64,000 bases of DNA from Lysobacterales bacterium. GTDB taxonomy: Bacteria > Pseudomonadota > Gammaproteobacteria > Xanthomonadales > Wenzhouxiangellaceae. Shown one piece after another: positions 1 through 51,312 of this stretch. Positions within the stretch are counted from its first letter, which is position 1, and the number at the start of each line of letters is the position of its first letter. The stretch covers positions 1-64,000 of the forward strand of contig PBLG01000011.1 of assembly GCA_002722315.1 (NCBI GenBank), given 5' to 3'. Position numbers and translations under genes: made by a program. The notes beneath the pieces are model-generated. The model worked only from the letters and a program-made list of their open reading frames with translations, was not told the origin of the DNA and ran no database searches.

Positions 1-561
1 CGGTTCAAGGCAGCAATCTACTTCCACTTGGGCGGTCTCGATCTCTACCCGGCGGCGGTGCGGAAATGAACGCTACCCACACGATTCAGTGAAGAGCCAC
101 TAAATCAATGCGGCCACCTGCCCATGCCGGATCCTCGTCAGTTGAAGCTCCCGCTGCAGTGTGCTCACGAAAAACTGCGAACTGGTTTTTCACATATACT
201 GGCCCAGTTCGCGCGGCATCCGAGATTCGCCGGATAGCCTCCATGCGCACATCTGGAGAGCGCAACAATAAATGAGCCAGAATAGCCGAACTCAAATTTT
301 CGGATCTCAGACCAGCAATTTCGCTAAATAAGCTCATTAAGCTACTCCTTTTTCGAAGACAGAAATAGACGCTTCGCAATCCATCTCATATTCTGTTGAC
401 CGGGGCATTCGGGTCGGTCTACAGCCGATGCGTCTTAGCGTAGGGCGCCTCGCGCTCTCAGCTCTCAAAGCCCCAGAATGGTGTCCGCCCAGCGCTGTCG
501 GGCCGTTTCGCAGATGGCGTTGCGCCCGCAGATTTACCCTGCTGTGGATTACTCATTCGTT

Positions 562-4698: not shown

Positions 4699-5229
4699 GT
4701 GCTGCAAGTGAAGCAAACTTTCATACATCGCCCAGAACTAGAAATAGAGGCTGACTTTTCGGGAGAGAAGCCCCCTGTGTTTCGCTATCGCCTTATCGCG
4801 ACGAAGGTGGGTTCTTCTGCGGCCCCTAAGACCGTGTGCGCCATAATGCAAAACCCAAGTTACGCTTGTGTGGGGTATGCAGATAAATCCGTCCAGGTGT
4901 TGGAAAGAGTAGTGTTTGAAAAAGGTCTCAAAGAGTTTCGCGGCGTTGGCCGGCTGATAATAGTAAATCAGTTTGCCTTCATCCAAACGAACGGTTTTAT
5001 TGGGGCGAGAGAGCAAGTTGGTGCCCGAAATGACGCTGCAATCGATCAAGCTCTGGAGCAATCAGAAATCATCCTCATTGCATGGGGCAAGGATAACCGT
5101 TTCGTCGAACGTCAAAATGAGATACTCGAAATGATTAGCCGTCATCAGGGCAAACGATTGCTTAAAACGAGCCGCCACCCTTCTAGGGTTGTCTATGAAG
5201 GGTTCATTCAAGAATATCGCCTAACATAA
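4699..5229 (+). CDS. DUF1643-family protein, integron-cassette gene
   Basis: CAIMQNPSYA...ADKSVQVLERVVFE...IIVNQFAF...ILIAWGKDN...TSRHPSRV pattern; immediately preceded by GTTAGGT and followed by an attC-like site. Confidence 0.75.
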   Translation: MLQVKQTFIHRPELEIEADFSGEKPPVFRYRLIATKVGSSAAPKTVCAIMQNPSYACVGYADKSVQVLERVVFEKGLKEFRGVGRLIIVNQFAFIQTNGFIGAREQVGARNDAAIDQALEQSEIILIAWGKDNRFVERQNEILEMISRHQGKRLLKTSRHPSRVVYEGFIQEYRLT

Positions 5230-5294
5230 ACGTCAACACGGACCGGCTTTTTCGCTGGCGCTACAAAGCCGGCCGGTTACGCTAGACGTTAGGC
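5219..5294 (+). other. attC-like integron recombination site
   Basis: Starts GCCTAAC (RYYYAAC) and ends GTTAGGC (GTTRRRY); internal inverted repeats AACGTC/GACGTT and CCGGCTTT/AAAGCCGG; 76 bp. Confidence 0.85.
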
Positions 5295-5309: not shown

Positions 5310-5957
5310 GTGCCTTTAGAGAAAACAACAAGAGATTTAATACACGATTATTGCGTCAGAGATCTCCCTGGCGATATTCAGTGGCACATCGATAAGTTTC
5401 CTTTTGTCGAAGACCAAGAATTGCGTAACCGCCTTGGTCGAGCATTTTATTCTGCTCGTTACACATATAAATTGATGGAAGCAACATTCGTACAGGGCGA
5501 TGAGCAGCACCCTTTTGTAAAATTTCAAATAATGCAGTATGCCTCTATTTATGAGGCAGTAATTACGAATCTATTGTGGGGCGAATTCAAAGAACACCCT
5601 GAAGTATTAAAATTACAAACCCATAAAGCATACAAACCAGTAAACGCTTTAGGCAGTCTTACCAAAATGCAATATGGTGACGAGGACTTATTCACTTGCG
5701 TCTACAGAGATTCCAAGACGCCCAGGAATTCCATTCCATTCAAAGAGAAGGTTGATTGTGCGGTTCGCATTGGGTTCATGGATGCGTCATATTCAGAAGA
5801 CATCAAGCTAATCTACGAGCTAAGAAACTTGGCGCATATAGAAACCGAGGCAAATAAACAGCTTGATGTTGAAATTGAGCAGTCTAAACATGCTTACTGG
5901 CGCCTTGCCCCATTTTTGGAAGGGGTTAGTTCATTTTTGGCCACCTACAATGCCTAA
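5310..5957 (+). CDS. Hypothetical cassette protein (possible HEPN-like helical protein)
   Basis: 215 aa ORF bounded by attC-like sites; YELRNLAHIETEANKQL resembles RN..H HEPN-type motifs (weak). Confidence 0.6.
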   Translation: MPLEKTTRDLIHDYCVRDLPGDIQWHIDKFPFVEDQELRNRLGRAFYSARYTYKLMEATFVQGDEQHPFVKFQIMQYASIYEAVITNLLWGEFKEHPEVLKLQTHKAYKPVNALGSLTKMQYGDEDLFTCVYRDSKTPRNSIPFKEKVDCAVRIGFMDASYSEDIKLIYELRNLAHIETEANKQLDVEIEQSKHAYWRLAPFLEGVSSFLATYNA

Positions 5958-6032
5958 CAATAGCATCAAGCTCGTTCGCTCTCGCTCACAGGGACGCCGC
6001 TACCGCGTCGCCCCTTATGCTTGTCGTTAGAT
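5952..6032 (+). other. attC-like integron recombination site
   Basis: GCCTAAC ... GTTAGAT, 81 bp. The cassette upstream begins GTTAGGCA (5288) and ends TGCCTAAC (5951), exact complements as expected for one mobile cassette. Confidence 0.85.
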
Positions 6033-43363: not shown

Positions 43364-43813
43364 ATGAACAAGTCAGATATATTCGCAGAAGCCACACACC
43401 GCATTGTGTCAAATAATTGGGACCTTCCGGTATCGCCTCAAAAACATGTGATGTCTCGACGCTATCAAGGACCTTGCCTTGAGGTCCGGGAGCGAATTAA
43501 GGACGCGGGCCGCGCAGCTCAGCAATCGGACGAAATCCGGGAAGTATTGATTGGATACATTCTTGAGTCCTATGGACACTTCTATCGCTCTGAAGAGTCC
43601 ACTTTCAATCAGAATAGAAAACATCCGGAATTTGAGGAATATCTTACTCACTGGTTCTATTCGGCACCAGAGTACGTAGATGTTCCAGCGCGGGGATACT
43701 TTAGGAAGTGGTTTACACGTCCAGACGTCCTAAGAATCGAGTCAGGGAATACTTTCTGGCGTTACCGCCCACTAAAAGGTACAACCGGAAGCCGGAAAGC
43801 GCCGGGCCGGTAA
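43364..43813 (+). CDS. Hypothetical protein, probable cassette gene
   Basis: 149 aa ORF, lower GC than its surroundings, followed by an attC-like site. Confidence 0.5.
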   Translation: MNKSDIFAEATHRIVSNNWDLPVSPQKHVMSRRYQGPCLEVRERIKDAGRAAQQSDEIREVLIGYILESYGHFYRSEESTFNQNRKHPEFEEYLTHWFYSAPEYVDVPARGYFRKWFTRPDVLRIESGNTFWRYRPLKGTTGSRKAPGR

Positions 43814-43859
43814 AACCGATTGAGTTCAGTGGCGGCGCCGGTTAACCCCAACGTTATGT
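43779..43859 (+). other. attC-like site (imperfect)
   Basis: GTACAAC ... CAACGTTATGT; AACCGG/CCGGTT and GCGCCG/CGGCGC arms. Confidence 0.55.
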
Positions 43860-43871
43860 GGGTTACCAGTC

Positions 43872-44234
43872 GTGAAATATAAGAACATTAAGTCGGCTAT
43901 TCACAATTTCGGTCATAGTTTCACGAGCCTGATGAACTATGTTGAGGATGGCTATGTTATTGATGAGCTGACTAATATCCATAGGAAAGGCCATGATATT
44001 GAAGTCGACTGGCTAATCCATCGGTTCAAACCGGAGAATCTGGCATCATCACGGATCAAAAAGTCCATCGGCTACTGGGGTGCTTCGTTATGCGACCATA
44101 TGGCTTCACAACGCGTCGAGCTGGAAAGGATCAAATCGCTCCATTTCGTTTGGCCCGCTGGCCAGAGGATGTTCATGCTTGCGGTTGATGACCGGAAGAA
44201 GGAACACAAAATCTATGTCAACAAACTCAAGTAA
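43872..44234 (+). CDS. Hypothetical cassette protein
   Basis: 120 aa ORF in a cassette that starts GTTATGTGG (43853) and ends CCACATAAC (44236-44244), exact complements. Confidence 0.6.
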   Translation: MKYKNIKSAIHNFGHSFTSLMNYVEDGYVIDELTNIHRKGHDIEVDWLIHRFKPENLASSRIKKSIGYWGASLCDHMASQRVELERIKSLHFVWPAGQRMFMLAVDDRKKEHKIYVNKLK

Positions 44235-44237
44235 ACC

Positions 44238-44316
44238 ACATAACGAGTCCTTCCACCGGATGCAAGAAACTGCGCTTGGCTCCAGTTTTTACCACCGGTG
44301 ACAGGAAACGTTAGCC
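44238..44316 (+). other. attC-like integron recombination site
   Basis: ACATAAC ... GTTAGCC, 79 bp; TTCCACCGG/CCGGTGACAGGAA arms and AAACTG/CAGTTT inner stem. Confidence 0.8.
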
Positions 44317-44323
44317 AGCTGAA

Positions 44324-45224
44324 CATGCATCCAGATGCCTACGCCCGATTCACCCGCCCTCACACGCGCGTTCTGCGGCAGCTTGTGCTCGATCTCGAGT
44401 TTTTTGTTGCCGACATCAACCTGCTGGGAGTGTTTTCCGTGGAGTCTCGCGTCAAGACGTTCAATAGTGCGATTGCGAAAGCAGAACGCATACAAATTCC
44501 GATCGATCAGCTCCAAGACATCGGGGGGCTCCGTATTGTTGTGGCAACAAAGAACGACGTGATGGTGCTCATGGAGTTCTTTCGTCGCCGCGCCGACATC
44601 TCGAAGGACCTCAAGATTCTCAAAGAGGAGCCGGTTGCACGCGCCTCGGGATACCGATCGACTCATCTCACGGCGGAATTCTCCGGCCACTACTCCCGCT
44701 CAGTTTTCCCTGGGAAACTCGAGATCCAGATTCCAACGATCTTCGAACACGCGTTCAATTTTGTTTCGCACTCGTTGGCATACAAGTCGCCATTGAGCCA
44801 TGACAAGGCATGGCTGGGCTGGTTTCGAGAAGTTTCGGATGCGCTTTTGGCCGTTGATGAGCTAGCGGCAAGTCTTCAGCGAGACGCATACGGCGGAGGA
44901 ACTGTCGACGCAAGTCGCGCTCCATTGTCAGTGCCACTGTATCAGCGTGTGGTTCGGCAAGAGTTCGGCGAGGAGGTCTCAACCTCCGATGCGGTACACA
45001 GTGTTGCGTGGTTTACAGATCGAGGCGCTGATACCGTGGCGAAATTGGAGGCCTTCTTCCGAGATGATGAGGTGATGCGGCTCTGGCAAGAGTTCTCCGA
45101 TTACGAGGCATTGTCGCGCCGCAAGCTGGCACTGACGACTTCCAAAGTGACCTTCTGGATGCTGTTTGGCACGAACGTGTCGCTTGCCAGAGAGCTCCTC
45201 GCCAAAGTCCGTTCGGGCGAATGA
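44324..45224 (+). CDS. RelA/SpoT nucleotidyltransferase-domain protein (possible small alarmone synthetase/toxSAS)
   Basis: ESRVKTFNSAIAKAERIQ, QDIGGLRIVVATKND, ASGYRSTHLTAEF, LEIQIPTIFEHAFNFVSHSLAYKSP are RelA_SpoT-domain motifs; extra C-terminal ~110 aa. Confidence 0.82.
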
Positions 45225-45436
45225 TATCTTGTGGTAGTTCGGGCTGGCCAACAAGGAAGTCCAACAGACAAGGCCTGCGGTGCCGCGTGCCGAAGTCGGT
45301 GAAACGCGTCCCTACGCTCGCGTGCAACATGGCACGCGTTCTCCAGCCGCGCCTATACTGCTAACCACCGTACGAAGCGGGCCTTGAAGCTGACTTCCCG
45401 GTCTGTTATATCGCTCGATACGCTGACTTTTGAGAT

Positions 45437-46486
45437 ATGAACGAACTTCTGATCACACTTCCGGACAACTATGACAAGATCGTCGAACGTCTGTTGCGTG
45501 CAGACTGGTTAATTCACAATTTCAGGGCAAAAGAACCGAACGGTCTCTATAATCCTGCTAACTACCTTTACAACGTCGAATTTCACAATGCAGAGTACCG
45601 GGCGCTATTAGATCTCAACGTACTGCAATATGCCGTCAACTGTGTCAAGAAAGACGCGATGCGCGATTTGTATCGCGATGCATGTGCAGTGCTCGTGTTC
45701 TGCCGAGCAGCCGAGATTCAGATTGAGCCCGCTCTATCAATATATGAGCGGATTAACTACAATGCCGAGAACCTCGAGGAGGCACTTGACGAATTGGCGT
45801 TGCTGAGGTCACTTGACAACGCAGATGTAGAACAACTTGCTCGCTATGCTTTGGGTGATAAACAAGCGCTCCGGGACATCGAACCAGCTGAGATTGATCG
45901 TAAAACGCTCGGTGCAAAATTGACCGAATATCGCAGACTAACCCATTGGGATTCGATTTATTTACTGGTTCTTGCGGCCGTTTCGACCTACTGGAATAAT
46001 AAAGTCCAACCCCAGAGGAAACTTGAACGCTATCTTGATTGGGTAGTACGCGAGTTTAGAATTTCACTACCATGCATTGTGTATGCGGTGCGATTGTTCG
46101 GTCACAATCCTCTTTCTAACATGATGAAGTTCCGAGTGGACCTCAACGATCATTCGAGACGCGCTGCGATCTTCAATATGACTTGGGATCTTTTTCATAT
46201 AGATCACTTCCTAAAGACCTGGATCGATCCAGAAAAAAAATGGGAAGAAATATTCTTTACCCAAGATCGCATGCTAAAGTCATTATTAAGGCTTGCTATC
46301 TCGGTTCAATATCGGGAAGATATTTCACCCCTATTGAACTTCCTGACACCGTCACAGGCAACGATGTGTAGGACCATCATCGATGGTCGTTCAGATCGCG
46401 AGGACCGTGCGTATGGTACCGATGCATGGTCTCCTGAACATAGGGATCAGCTGATCTCGAAACTGGAGAGAGAACTGTATGATTGA
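45437..46486 (+). CDS. Uncharacterised 349-aa protein (possible PIN-like or other effector)
   Basis: Uninterrupted low-GC ORF adjacent to defence genes; YRALLDLNVLQYAV and HWDSIYLLVLAA weakly PIN-like. Confidence 0.5.
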   Translation: MNELLITLPDNYDKIVERLLRADWLIHNFRAKEPNGLYNPANYLYNVEFHNAEYRALLDLNVLQYAVNCVKKDAMRDLYRDACAVLVFCRAAEIQIEPALSIYERINYNAENLEEALDELALLRSLDNADVEQLARYALGDKQALRDIEPAEIDRKTLGAKLTEYRRLTHWDSIYLLVLAAVSTYWNNKVQPQRKLERYLDWVVREFRISLPCIVYAVRLFGHNPLSNMMKFRVDLNDHSRRAAIFNMTWDLFHIDHFLKTWIDPEKKWEEIFFTQDRMLKSLLRLAISVQYREDISPLLNFLTPSQATMCRTIIDGRSDREDRAYGTDAWSPEHRDQLISKLERELYD

Positions 46487-46557
46487 GGCCGTAAAATAAA
46501 CTCGCTAACCCAGCCGACGCAAAAAAGCCGCGCGGCTATTAGTCCGGTTACACATAT

Positions 46558-49152
46558 TCAATAATCCGTCGCCGCCTTGCCCGCGTATAGGGCCTTGGCG
46601 TCGGTTGCGGCTTCGACCGCGTTGCGCACGCTTTCCTTTGTCAGGTCCAGTACGCGAAGGGTGTCGTCTTCCATGCGTGCGACGGCTTCGATCCGGTGAA
46701 ATTGATCCCCGTATTCTTCGGCGAATTCTGACAGGCCTCTTAGCTTGGGCAGGGCGTCAGCCAGGTGGTGGCCGTGGGGGTCGACGATGGAGACTTTGAC
46801 TTCATCGTCGGAGCCGTGGAAGAACACGAAATCGGGGCACATGCGGCGCCAGTTGTCCTGGCCGTCGCGATAGGCGATGGCGAGTGCGTCTTCGGAGGCG
46901 CGCGAGGGGTTACGGTACCAGGCGAGGAAATCGGGATCGCCCATTTCCTCGTCTAGCACGCCGAGCTCCCATTCATTGAGCGAGCCGACCGGGAATTCGC
47001 CGTTCTCGTCGCTCATCAGGTGCTTTCCGCGGGTCGGGATGGGGTTTCCGTCCTGGTCTTCGGTTTCCTCGGTGCGGGTGCGCGGACGCTGGATGCTGAT
47101 CGGTTGCGGCTGGCGCGACATGCCCTTGATTTCGGCATAGAACTGCTGGCGTTCGTCGCTCAGGTTCTTGATCGGCTTGCGATAGTCGGCAAACCACTGC
47201 TCGGCCAGCTTGTCGGCGGCGCGGTCCAGTTCGTGCGGCACTTCCTCGATGCGCGCAAGGGCCGCGACCTTCACGTGCGCGTCGAACAGCGCGTCGACGT
47301 CGTCGCCGGCGATGCGGTCGGCGTATCGTTTTGCCAGTTCCGGGGTGAGAATCCGGCGCGCGTCGCGGAATTCGGCCTCTACCGCGCGTTCATCGGCCAT
47401 CTCGGTGAACGTGCCGGCCGGGGTTACGCTGCCTTCGGTCACGCCGGCGACAATGGTTTCGCCGCGCACTTCGAGAATGGCGTCGATGTTCCTGTCCACG
47501 GTCGTCTTGTGCTCGGTGGCCAGCCCGTCCAGGCGTGCGAACAGCTTTTCGTAGGCGTCCTTGATTGCATTCTCGCGCAACCCGTCGCGCGACAGCGCCT
47601 GGGCCAGTGCGGTCAGCCGGCGCATGGGTCGTGCGGCCTTGCGCGGCAGGGTCTGCGACGGCACGTTTTCGAACGCATCCCAGACGATTTCCGGAATGGC
47701 CGGATTGGGCTGCATGTCGATCGCCTTGTACAACACCCGGCGTCCTTCGCCGCCACCGGTATCGCCCGAACCGTCGTCGCCAGTCGCGGTGGTGCCCAGC
47801 AGGACATCGGCCACGTCGGATGCGGTCTTTCGGTTGAAATGCGGCAGCAGGCATTCGACCGAGTTGAGCATGTCGTTTCCCGGCACCCGGCGGGCCAGCG
47901 GCGTGCGCACCATGCGGCCCAGAAGCTGGGTGATGTGGGTCTGGTCCTTGGCCGGCCGGAACGATACCAACACCTCGGCGCGCGGGCAGTCCCAGCCGGT
48001 GGAAATCGCATCCTTGGCGAACAGCACGCGGATTTCGGTGTCTTCCTGCACGCGCTCCGGCGAGATGTGCGGCACCGAAAAACCGCCCAGCTCGATGGTC
48101 TGGTGCTCGCCGAACACGTGCGCCATCGCATCGGTTTCCAGTTCCGGCCAGGCGTCCTTGATCGTGGTGAACGCGCTGATCAGCAGATCGTCGGGCGGCT
48201 TGTTGGGCACCTGCACCACCAGCAGCGGCACAACGGGCTCCTTGATGCCCTCGCGCTCGGAGTATTCGCGCCACAGCGCGGTGGCGTGGCGCACCTTGCG
48301 CGTGGCGCGCTCCAGCAGCACGGTATCGAACTGGCCGGACTCGGTCGGGAATTCCAGCCGGATGTCGTCCTTGAGCAGCCCCGATTCCTGCACCCGCGCC
48401 GCGTCCACGACCACGTTCGGATACGTGGTGCGCCCCTCTGCCTGGGCCATGGCCTTGTCGAAGCGCTCGACCGTGGCCGAAATGCCCAGGACCACCGGCA
48501 CCGGCGGCACGTCGTTGCCGCCGTTGACCAGGCGCTGGACGATGGTCGCGCGCTCCTGTTTTTCGTTGCTCGTGCGACGCTTCATGCCGCGGTGGGCCTC
48601 GTCCAGGATCAGGTACAGCGTGAGGTTGTCGTCCTCGATGGTGTTGCGCAGCGTGTCCCACATCGTGAACGCGCGCGCATCGGGTGGGGGCATGTTCTGC
48701 AGCTCACGATTCGGGTCATCCGGGTCGGCTTCGGGCGCGCCGCGCACCAGCAGGGAGTTCTTGCCCAGCTTCTGCGCGTTGAGGAAATACACCTTGCCCG
48801 GTTCCAGCTTCTCCTGGTTGAATGTACTGTCGATCACCACCAGCCGTGATTTCGCCGCCAGCCGATCGGCCGCGTCCATCAGTCGAAATCGGGTCTGTTC
48901 ATTCAGCGCCGGGTCGTCGGTAAACCACAGCACCACCGCACCCGGGTCCGGCGCGAAATCATGCTCGGCGTCGCCATCGAACAGCGCTTCGATCACGGCC
49001 GCGGCCATCACGGTCTTGCCGGCGCCGGTGGTGGCGGTGAGCGAGAATGCGACCGGTGACTTCCATTTCGCCCAGTCTTCCCGGGCGCGCGCCAGGCGCG
49101 AGAGCACGTCGCCGACCGCGTCGTCCTGGTAATCCTTGAGCGTATAGCGCAT
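46558..49152 (-). CDS. res: Type III restriction-modification Res subunit (DEAD/DEAH helicase-nuclease)
   Basis: LTATTGAGKTVMAAAVIEAL (Walker A), LILDEAHRG (DEAH), FAKDAISTGWDCPRAEVLVSFRP, ITQLLGRMVRTPLARRVPG. Confidence 0.9.
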   Translation of the reverse strand: MRYTLKDYQDDAVGDVLSRLARAREDWAKWKSPVAFSLTATTGAGKTVMAAAVIEALFDGDAEHDFAPDPGAVVLWFTDDPALNEQTRFRLMDAADRLAAKSRLVVIDSTFNQEKLEPGKVYFLNAQKLGKNSLLVRGAPEADPDDPNRELQNMPPPDARAFTMWDTLRNTIEDDNLTLYLILDEAHRGMKRRTSNEKQERATIVQRLVNGGNDVPPVPVVLGISATVERFDKAMAQAEGRTTYPNVVVDAARVQESGLLKDDIRLEFPTESGQFDTVLLERATRKVRHATALWREYSEREGIKEPVVPLLVVQVPNKPPDDLLISAFTTIKDAWPELETDAMAHVFGEHQTIELGGFSVPHISPERVQEDTEIRVLFAKDAISTGWDCPRAEVLVSFRPAKDQTHITQLLGRMVRTPLARRVPGNDMLNSVECLLPHFNRKTASDVADVLLGTTATGDDGSGDTGGGEGRRVLYKAIDMQPNPAIPEIVWDAFENVPSQTLPRKAARPMRRLTALAQALSRDGLRENAIKDAYEKLFARLDGLATEHKTTVDRNIDAILEVRGETIVAGVTEGSVTPAGTFTEMADERAVEAEFRDARRILTPELAKRYADRIAGDDVDALFDAHVKVAALARIEEVPHELDRAADKLAEQWFADYRKPIKNLSDERQQFYAEIKGMSRQPQPISIQRPRTRTEETEDQDGNPIPTRGKHLMSDENGEFPVGSLNEWELGVLDEEMGDPDFLAWYRNPSRASEDALAIAYRDGQDNWRRMCPDFVFFHGSDDEVKVSIVDPHGHHLADALPKLRGLSEFAEEYGDQFHRIEAVARMEDDTLRVLDLTKESVRNAVEAATDAKALYAGKAATDY

Positions 49153-49158
49153 CGCGAT

Positions 49159-51312
49159 CTATTCCCGGCCGGTGTTGATGACGAAGTTGGTCAGGTACGA
49201 CTCGTACAGCCGCACGGCCTCCACGTGGGCCGGAAGTTCGGCGCACACCGACGAAAAGCCGCGGTCATCGTCGGTGATGATGAACGCCATGCGCACGGTA
49301 TCGGATGCGGTGAGCGCCGCGATGAAATCCTGCGCCGCGTCCAGGTCGAACAGCACGCCGTAGGTGTCGCCCATGTCGAATCCGTCGCCGGGCTTGTCGA
49401 TGCGCCGGCCCTGCGCGCCGGCCTTCAGCCACAGCAGCGGCGCGATGGCCTCGAACGATCGATGATGTGCGACTGGGCGGGGCGCTTCGTAGGTCAGGTC
49501 GAAGAATTCGACGTTTTCGGCGAAGCCGTCAGCCATCGGGAAATCGTCGGTGAACTTGTAATCACCCTTGATCGGTTTGCCTACCGGTGTTTTTCCGTTA
49601 ATCGCGGCTTCGATGCGCGGCTTGGTGATGTGCTCACAGATGCCCAGCGCTTCCCATTCCGGATCGCCCGGGCGCAGGTTCTTTTCGCGCAGCGCCTTCT
49701 GCTCGTCGGCCGAGACTTCGTTGTTGGTGACGCTGATGCACTGGCGGTGGCCGCCATCCTGCTTGTTCAGGCGCATCACGGCGTGGGCGGTCGTGCCGGA
49801 ACCGGAGAAGAAATCGACGATGACTGCATCTATCTTCTTTGCAACGAAAAATCGCAATGTATCTTCGACAGCATAAAGCGACTTTGGGAAGGGAAATCGG
49901 CGATCAGGCATCAATGATTTAAGTACGGCGGTTCCATATTCACTCGCAGAGTGGGATATCTGATTCCACACTGTCAATGGCTGGAATTGCTTACCTCGCT
50001 CGCCATACTCGACCATAATCGCGCCATCATCATCATGGCCCGTTATCACCAAATTTCCCGTGTTGTTCTCAATATCAGCTATTTGCCCAGTAGTCAGATA
50101 ATAGGGAGAGCGTCCCGAAGCGGTAAGAGGACCAAATCGGATATATCCTGCCTCGTGATATTGGATAAAAGTATTTCTCCCGAGGCCCCACGTCAATTCC
50201 CTGCCATCATTACCCAAAGGCCACACTATTAATTCCCCTTCAGGTACTTCTACCGATTCCCTCGAGAGTGTAGGTTCAAGCGCCTTACCAGCACGGAGAA
50301 ATTTTCCACTTTCTGCGTCAAAGAATAGCGGGTAAAAAAGATTCGGCCTTGCTCGTCTAAGGCCGTTCGTCGCTGAGCGAAGTAGCGATTTCCATCTAAC
50401 CGGGCCGCTGTTCATCTTGACGGCACGCAACATATCCGTATTGCCGGGACATATCTCAGCTGTGCCAATGAAAACAAAATAGATGTACTCATCAGCTCGT
50501 GAAAAAGCCCCTCGTCTTGCCGACCCTTTTGGGCTGATAACGGTTGTCACCATCTGTACTTCAGCACTCTCGAATATCTGCTCGAGAAGCAAACCAAGAC
50601 GGAGAACTTCCTTCTCATCAATCGTAACGATCAACACTGAATTATGCGGATTCAACAACCGCTTCGCCAGCTTGAAACGCCGCTCCATCATCGCCAGCCA
50701 CTTCGAGTGCCGGTAGGCGTCGTCGCTGTCGACGTAGTCGTTGTTGTATTTCCAGTCTTTTGCGCCGGTGTTGTAGGGCGGGTCGATATAGATGGCGTCG
50801 ACCTTGCCTTCGTGTGTGTAGAGCAGGGCCTGCAGGGCGTGGTAGTTCTCGGCGTTGATCACGGTATGGAAGGGCTTGTCGCCGCCGCGCTCGACCTTGC
50901 CTGTGGATTTGAGGCCGGGGTAGATCGGATCGCGGAATCCGGCGACCACGATCAGGTCATCGACGGGGCGGGAGGTTTTTTCGATCTCGGCTTCGGGGCT
51001 GTCGCGGCGGACAAGCTCGGCGATGCGCCTTGCCTTCTTGCCGCTGCCCTCGGTGACTATGGATGCGACCAGCCAGATTCTGTGGTCGACGCTGCCGGGC
51101 GCGTTCCCGCGCTCGGCGACAAAGCGCACCTTGTCGCCCTTGCGCACGGGCCGGCCGGGCAGTTCCACCGTCTCGGGCACATGGCGCTCGAAATTCAGCC
51201 CGAACGCGCGCCGCTTGCGGAGCTGATCGAACTCGCGCCGCAGATCGGCCGCCAGCTGACTGTCCTTGCCCTCGACCTGGCGCAGAAGATCGCTCAGCCG
51301 CGACATCGGCAC
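49159..51312 (-). CDS. mod: Type III restriction-modification Mod subunit (DNA methyltransferase)
   Basis: DAIYIDPPYNTGAKDWKYNNDYVDSDDAYRHSKWLAMMERRF; AVIVDFFSGSGTTAHAVMRLN; 6 bp upstream of res. Confidence 0.93.
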   Translation of the reverse strand: MPMSRLSDLLRQVEGKDSQLAADLRREFDQLRKRRAFGLNFERHVPETVELPGRPVRKGDKVRFVAERGNAPGSVDHRIWLVASIVTEGSGKKARRIAELVRRDSPEAEIEKTSRPVDDLIVVAGFRDPIYPGLKSTGKVERGGDKPFHTVINAENYHALQALLYTHEGKVDAIYIDPPYNTGAKDWKYNNDYVDSDDAYRHSKWLAMMERRFKLAKRLLNPHNSVLIVTIDEKEVLRLGLLLEQIFESAEVQMVTTVISPKGSARRGAFSRADEYIYFVFIGTAEICPGNTDMLRAVKMNSGPVRWKSLLRSATNGLRRARPNLFYPLFFDAESGKFLRAGKALEPTLSRESVEVPEGELIVWPLGNDGRELTWGLGRNTFIQYHEAGYIRFGPLTASGRSPYYLTTGQIADIENNTGNLVITGHDDDGAIMVEYGERGKQFQPLTVWNQISHSASEYGTAVLKSLMPDRRFPFPKSLYAVEDTLRFFVAKKIDAVIVDFFSGSGTTAHAVMRLNKQDGGHRQCISVTNNEVSADEQKALREKNLRPGDPEWEALGICEHITKPRIEAAINGKTPVGKPIKGDYKFTDDFPMADGFAENVEFFDLTYEAPRPVAHHRSFEAIAPLLWLKAGAQGRRIDKPGDGFDMGDTYGVLFDLDAAQDFIAALTASDTVRMAFIITDDDRGFSSVCAELPAHVEAVRLYESYLTNFVINTGRE

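Follow-up and report, generated by a model that had tools for sequence, protein, structure and literature searches.

Defence-type RelA/SpoT enzymes known so far are mainly CapRel-like and toxSAS proteins. CapRel (CapRel-SJ46; the PDC-S33 family) combines a SYNTH domain and a C-terminal region in a single chain and lies in a defence-type neighbourhood, and its C-terminal region senses phage proteins (PMC9712102). The toxSAS proteins, such as FaRel2 and PhRel2, belong to toxin-antitoxin modules and pyrophosphorylate tRNA (PMC11559606). SYNTH domains also occur in the small alarmone synthetases (SAS) RelP and RelQ and in a phage-borne RelA/SpoT family (L054, L154-L163), whose C-terminal region, behind the domain, is about as long as the one described here. 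In L154-L163, which are encoded on viral contigs and measure ~330-350 aa, this region is conserved.

We analysed a gene for a further, divergent RelA/SpoT-type protein, related to the enzymes that produce the stress signal ppGpp, in the window (the whole 64-kb stretch of DNA under study; Table 1), which is present as a single copy in its genome. We read this RelA-like protein, at roughly 0.45 and so somewhat short of even odds, as a member of a rare, unnamed SAS lineage: a laterally acquired, putative pyrophosphotransferase that would serve as an anti-phage growth-arrest effector with a helical regulatory domain, its activity, acceptor, regulation and defence role all being predicted from sequence and gene context. 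Full-length orthologs were recovered from two genomes (G802 and G1206) among the ~1,000 or more searched. Both genomes belong to the same order as the host genome but to a different family; the G802 ortholog has 39% identity. The 369 sampled genomes of the class held no further member, and the distribution is patchy: none of the relatives sampled in the genus and family has the gene, and almost none of the genomes sampled in the order and class does. Searched against GTDB and viral contigs, plasmids and phages, the protein had no close relative, similarity ending at the SYNTH domain, and a limited literature search found no paper describing the lineage.

Domain content, start codon and catalytic residues

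The alarmone-synthetase-type motifs noted in the preliminary description were borne out by a Pfam match to PF04607 (RelA_SpoT) over residues 41-155 (1.7e-13, 51.2 bits against a curated cut-off of 27). The long C-terminal extension without an obvious HD hydrolase was likewise confirmed: it spans ~110 aa, Pfam found no HD hydrolase domain in the 299-aa protein, and the extension matched nothing in Pfam, PADLOC or NCBIfam. PADLOC's only match to the protein, PDC-S33 (3e-15), covers residues 12-144, i.e. the SYNTH domain alone. The genome has a single other PF04607 protein, a long Rel encoded on a different contig (L001, 826-2985), whose HD region looks degenerate by reading (RelA type), and no SpoT was found in this genome, which is 85% complete.

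The start had previously been placed at 44324, one base before the ATG that opens the reading frame. An upstream GTG would extend the protein so that the recombination core GTT (44310) lay within the reading frame as codon 5 of the extension, and would give it the N-terminus MTGN; the orthologs begin with MTGN in G802 and MTEA in G1206. Positions 44291-44309 of the window, in the attC 3' arm, are identical at 17 of 19 nt to the start of the G802 ortholog (L202, ~1461-1479), in register with both reading frames. Since the same nucleotides are common to the attC arm and the ortholog start, either the role in the attC arm or that as a conserved gene start should be secondary.

All three members keep twelve residues (R42, K44, K52, D65, G68, R70, Y110, H114, E133, Q135, Y153 and K154), ten of which (all but Y153 and K154) occupy positions that bind ATP and the acceptor base in known enzymes; the set includes counterparts of the FaRel2 ATP-binding and G-loop residues R64, K66, K74, R95, Y128, E145 and Q147 (PMC11782079). 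The protein has the core catalytic residues of the RelA/SpoT type and is most likely an ATP-dependent pyrophosphotransferase. The ATP-donor and G-loop core is intact, but the Arg of the E-x-Q-x-R-T ("QIRT") motif is gone in 3/3 members, replaced by P137 here and by His in both orthologs, at a position that is otherwise near-invariant and is Arg in all other rows of the SYNTH alignment. In addition, two of the three have lost the His of HxLxYK. Because both orthologs also lack the QIRT Arg, its loss characterises the lineage and is not local decay.

Relationship to RelP/RelQ, CapRel and toxSAS

A tree of 53 SYNTH domains puts the RelA-like protein in a distinct lineage, apart from the CapRel-like and RelP/RelQ groups as well as from long Rel and phage proteins, on a branch of length 2.36 that is so long that its exact position is unsure. 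The 13 CapRel-like/PDC-S33 rows form a clade (support 100/97) from which it is excluded, and RelP/RelQ together with one actinobacterial row form a group (99/98) without it. Membership in CapRel or RelP/RelQ was rejected by the tree and by the domain tests.

The AlphaFold2 model (mean pLDDT 78.6, with mostly 80-93 in SYNTH and ~56-61 in the last 40 residues) has a SYNTH fold, followed by a long helix and then a C-terminal domain made of helices. Its best Foldseek match was (p)ppGpp-making RelQ/RelP (5ded, with pppGpp; 5.8e-12), with CapRel (4e-7), FaRel2 (1e-4) and Tas1 (7e-4) at lower rank, a ranking biased toward RelP/RelQ because the model's input alignment was rich in RelP/RelQ sequences. 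Identity to the G802 ortholog is 30% in the C-terminus versus 47% in SYNTH; as the full-length orthologs have this C-terminus too, it is a real domain. Homology of this domain to the C-termini of the phage L054 family looked good by eye, but HMM, shuffle and hhalign comparisons (one or two sequences) were all unsupportive, with an HMM score of 1.8 where shuffles reach 5.7; the C-termini are not significantly related, and the phage-borne family forms a separate clade.

Among the known groups, RelP/RelQ are closest in SYNTH sequence and predicted fold and have most catalytic residues in common with the RelA-like protein. These similarities bear on the possibility that the gene encodes an ordinary RelP/RelQ-type (p)ppGpp synthetase that sits on a mobile segment and adds stress-induced alarmone, with the defence neighbours reflecting shared islands. 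Besides the 5ded match, the best PDB sequence match is YjbM/RelQ (1e-8), and the G-loop GYRSTH and the YK motif resemble RelQ's. Such an enzyme would not, however, be expected outside the RelP/RelQ group on a very long branch, with Pro or His in place of the QIRT Arg in every member, the HxLxYK His missing from two of them, and a helical domain added that RelP/RelQ do not have; the defence-gene company in three genomes is a further difference. We therefore consider this explanation unlikely and favour a separate lineage of effectors.

The preliminary description had instead suggested kinship with CapRel and toxSAS, and this was not supported. Although CapRel is likewise a single-chain SYNTH protein with a C-terminal region, the C-terminus here is helical whereas CapRel's is beta-rich, is unrelated to it by sequence and lacks the pseudo-zinc-finger; the YXXY motif is absent from the protein sequence, and the YK (Tyr-Lys) motif is kept here but missing in aligned PDC-S33 members. 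The toxSAS proteins share ATP-donor site residues in SYNTH, but the similarity is only remote. FaRel2 has a basic K28/R29 pair (PMC11782079), whereas the N-terminal loop of the RelA-like protein, read from its sequence, has no such Lys-Arg pair. No known antitoxin family was found among the neighbouring genes with Pfam, PADLOC or NCBIfam, orf120 and orf349 being uncharacterised. A toxin of the toxSAS/CapRel type, specific for tRNA or adenosine and silenced by a fused or neighbouring antitoxin, would account for the C-terminal extension of similar size, the defence neighbourhood and the lower-ranked fold matches, and the changed motif residues fit a non-GTP acceptor. Against the exclusion from the CapRel/PDC-S33 clade, the helical C-terminus and the lack of YXXY, of the Lys-Arg pair and of a recognisable antitoxin gene, however, we judge it improbable.

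A different arrangement was observed on two plasmids, from Ochrobactrum (L148, 781-2864) and Klebsiella (L153, 784-2864), where a RelA/SpoT-domain gene and a gene for a "nucleoid-associated protein" overlap by 4 nt; this pair is possibly a two-gene system of its own.

attC sites and the low-GC segment

In GC-rich DNA, an ad hoc scanner for attC reported many false sites; it was replaced by two covariance models, R1 and R2, the second of which was built from the attC of integrons in genomes of the same family and an aadA-type site. Only R2 was built with the window sequences left out. Over the 64 kb, R2 identified exactly four attC sites, all on the forward strand, and no other site at E<=10 (Table 1).

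Table 1. Features of the window around the RelA-like gene and the other attC sites (positions in the window; domain limits in residues)
Feature	Position	Strand	Details
attC	5219-5294	+	R2 E 1e-7
attC	5952-6032	+	R2 E 2e-4
orf149, before the degenerate attC	43364..43813	+	149 aa; no significant family (Pfam, PADLOC, NCBIfam)
attC at 3' end of orf149 gene	43767..43859	+	R2 28.1 bits, E 2e-4; R'' box degenerate
orf120, gene of the preceding cassette (43853-44310)	43872..44234	+	120 aa; no significant family (Pfam, PADLOC, NCBIfam)
attC, 3' end of orf120 cassette and 5' boundary of RelA-like segment	44238..44316	+	R2 25.2 bits, E 1e-3
Alternative 5' extension of RelA-like gene	44298..44324	+	GTG start, MTGNVSQLN; inside attC 3' arm
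RelA/SpoT synthetase-domain protein gene	44325..45224	+	299 aa from ATG, intact ORF
SYNTH domain	residues ~35-156		
Long helix	residues 161-189		
Helical C-terminal domain	residues ~200-299		
Possible R'' remnant of a decayed 3' attC, GCTGGCCAAC	45243..45252	+	complementarity only
orf349	45437..46486	+	349 aa, low GC; no significant family (Pfam, PADLOC, NCBIfam)
Type III RM	46558..51312	-	Res 46558-49152, Mod 49159-51312

The attC at the end of orf149 has the same sequence type as the attC of integrons in the same family. The single strand of the next site, that of the orf120 cassette, folds better than 200/200 shuffles (z -2.9), its R'' is complementary at 9/10 positions to the 5' start of its own cassette, and it terminates exactly at the 5' end of the RelA-like gene. 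The gene had been described as lying between attC-like sites; this proved correct for the 5' side, but no attC was found 3' of it, the best scores over 45225-46700 with filters off being 2.8 bits (R2) and 4.8 bits (R1). Shortly downstream, the 10-mer GCTGGCCAAC is complementary at 9/10 positions to the cassette start GTTAGCCAGC (p ~0.006-0.012, by shuffles or window background), with no attC fold and no model match at these positions. A two-gene cassette of the RelA-like gene and orf349 ending at ~46503-46553 was rejected, the weak hairpin there having no attC model match. Cassette-like on its 5' side but lacking any recognisable attC on its 3' side, the gene either is a cassette whose site has decayed or flanks what is left of a cassette.

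Four genes from 43.3 to 46.5 kb have a GC content of 0.45-0.55, compared with 0.63-0.65 for two genes on the left and Res on the right, and this drop indicates that the low-GC segment (43.1-46.5 kb) was probably acquired. The restriction system reported nearby was confirmed as Type III Res and Mod genes on the opposite strand, separated from the RelA-like gene by orf349 (ResIII 1.3e-12 with Pfam; MTase_III 3e-258 and REase_III 3e-9 with PADLOC). The one match of orf349 is a distant relative (22% identity) on pYS1, a conjugative Burkholderia plasmid, close to genes for a tyrosine recombinase and IS5; its structure predicted from the single sequence was unusable (pLDDT 37).

This setting bears on whether the gene is a decaying passenger, captured by chance in an attC remnant and with no present function. 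Its long branch, its single copy, the Pro at a conserved Arg position and the degenerate or missing adjoining attC sites are what such a gene might present, but the ORF is intact, the core residues are kept and the orthologs lack the QIRT Arg as well. We think a functionless passenger hardly probable, and continue to favour a functional effector.

The bacterial lineage is integron-rich: an integron integrase was present in 28 of the 41 genomes searched (this genome and 40 relatives). The integrase of this genome (IntI, over the cut-off) lies on another contig (C23:1479-2423), and none was found in the 64-kb window. Sites resembling attC are scattered over contigs C45, C2, C52, C51, C23, C41 and C38 of the genome. 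Within the window, the two leftmost attC enclose an ORF of 215 aa (5310-5957) and mark a second cluster of cassettes, 38 kb away from the RelA-like gene.

Defence neighbourhoods and a proposed effector role

Gabija and RM are both common kinds of system. The G1206 ortholog follows a complete Gabija (GajA E=0, GajB 6e-250) on the same strand, whose helicase gene ends 63 nt before it, and the PADLOC candidates PDC-S52 and PDC-S54 lie nearby. The neighbours of the G802 ortholog are RadC, an IS element, a GHKL ATPase and two N6/N4 DNA methylases. No attC was found at either ortholog locus. Defence or RM genes are thus near the gene in 3/3 members, a small association of three loci. Since two close relatives also stand beside anti-phage genes, one of them right after Gabija, the RelA-like protein may be an uncharacterised defence effector. 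Of the earlier proposal of a mobile toxin or anti-phage effector, the defence role is therefore plausible, whereas assignment to CapRel or toxSAS is not supported.

In the mechanism that we propose, the gene would have been acquired laterally in the low-GC segment carrying integron attC sites, and the SYNTH domain would move pyrophosphate from ATP to an acceptor. During normal growth the effector would be held in check, perhaps by the helical C-terminus, for which the preliminary description had proposed a sensor or self-neutralising function; infection would switch it on in an abortive-infection-like manner, with the helical domain acting as regulator or sensor, and the growth-stopping product would be an alarmone or pyrophosphorylated tRNA. 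No sensor domain or phage trigger was identified.

A more specific version, which we hold to be rather doubtful, is that this unnamed short RelA/SpoT lineage, with its QIRT-Arg loss and its own helical regulatory domain, would be an add-on to Gabija/RM defence and could travel on integron-associated segments. The position directly after Gabija in G1206 offers a testable pairing, although this Gabija could be complete even without the RelA-like gene. If the effector reading is true, a separate lineage with another regulatory domain and a changed motif would enlarge the range of immune effectors that modify nucleotides or tRNA. It would also bear on which genes integron-related segments bank; anti-phage genes are banked in integron cassettes according to a statement in PMC12444791, which cites Darracq 2025 and Kieffer 2025.

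Beside the G802 ortholog, genes for a receiver-like protein (no Pfam match), a GHKL ATPase and a DNA methylase follow one another with 4-nt overlaps (L206, 11298-16251), and this run may be an uncharacterised defence operon.
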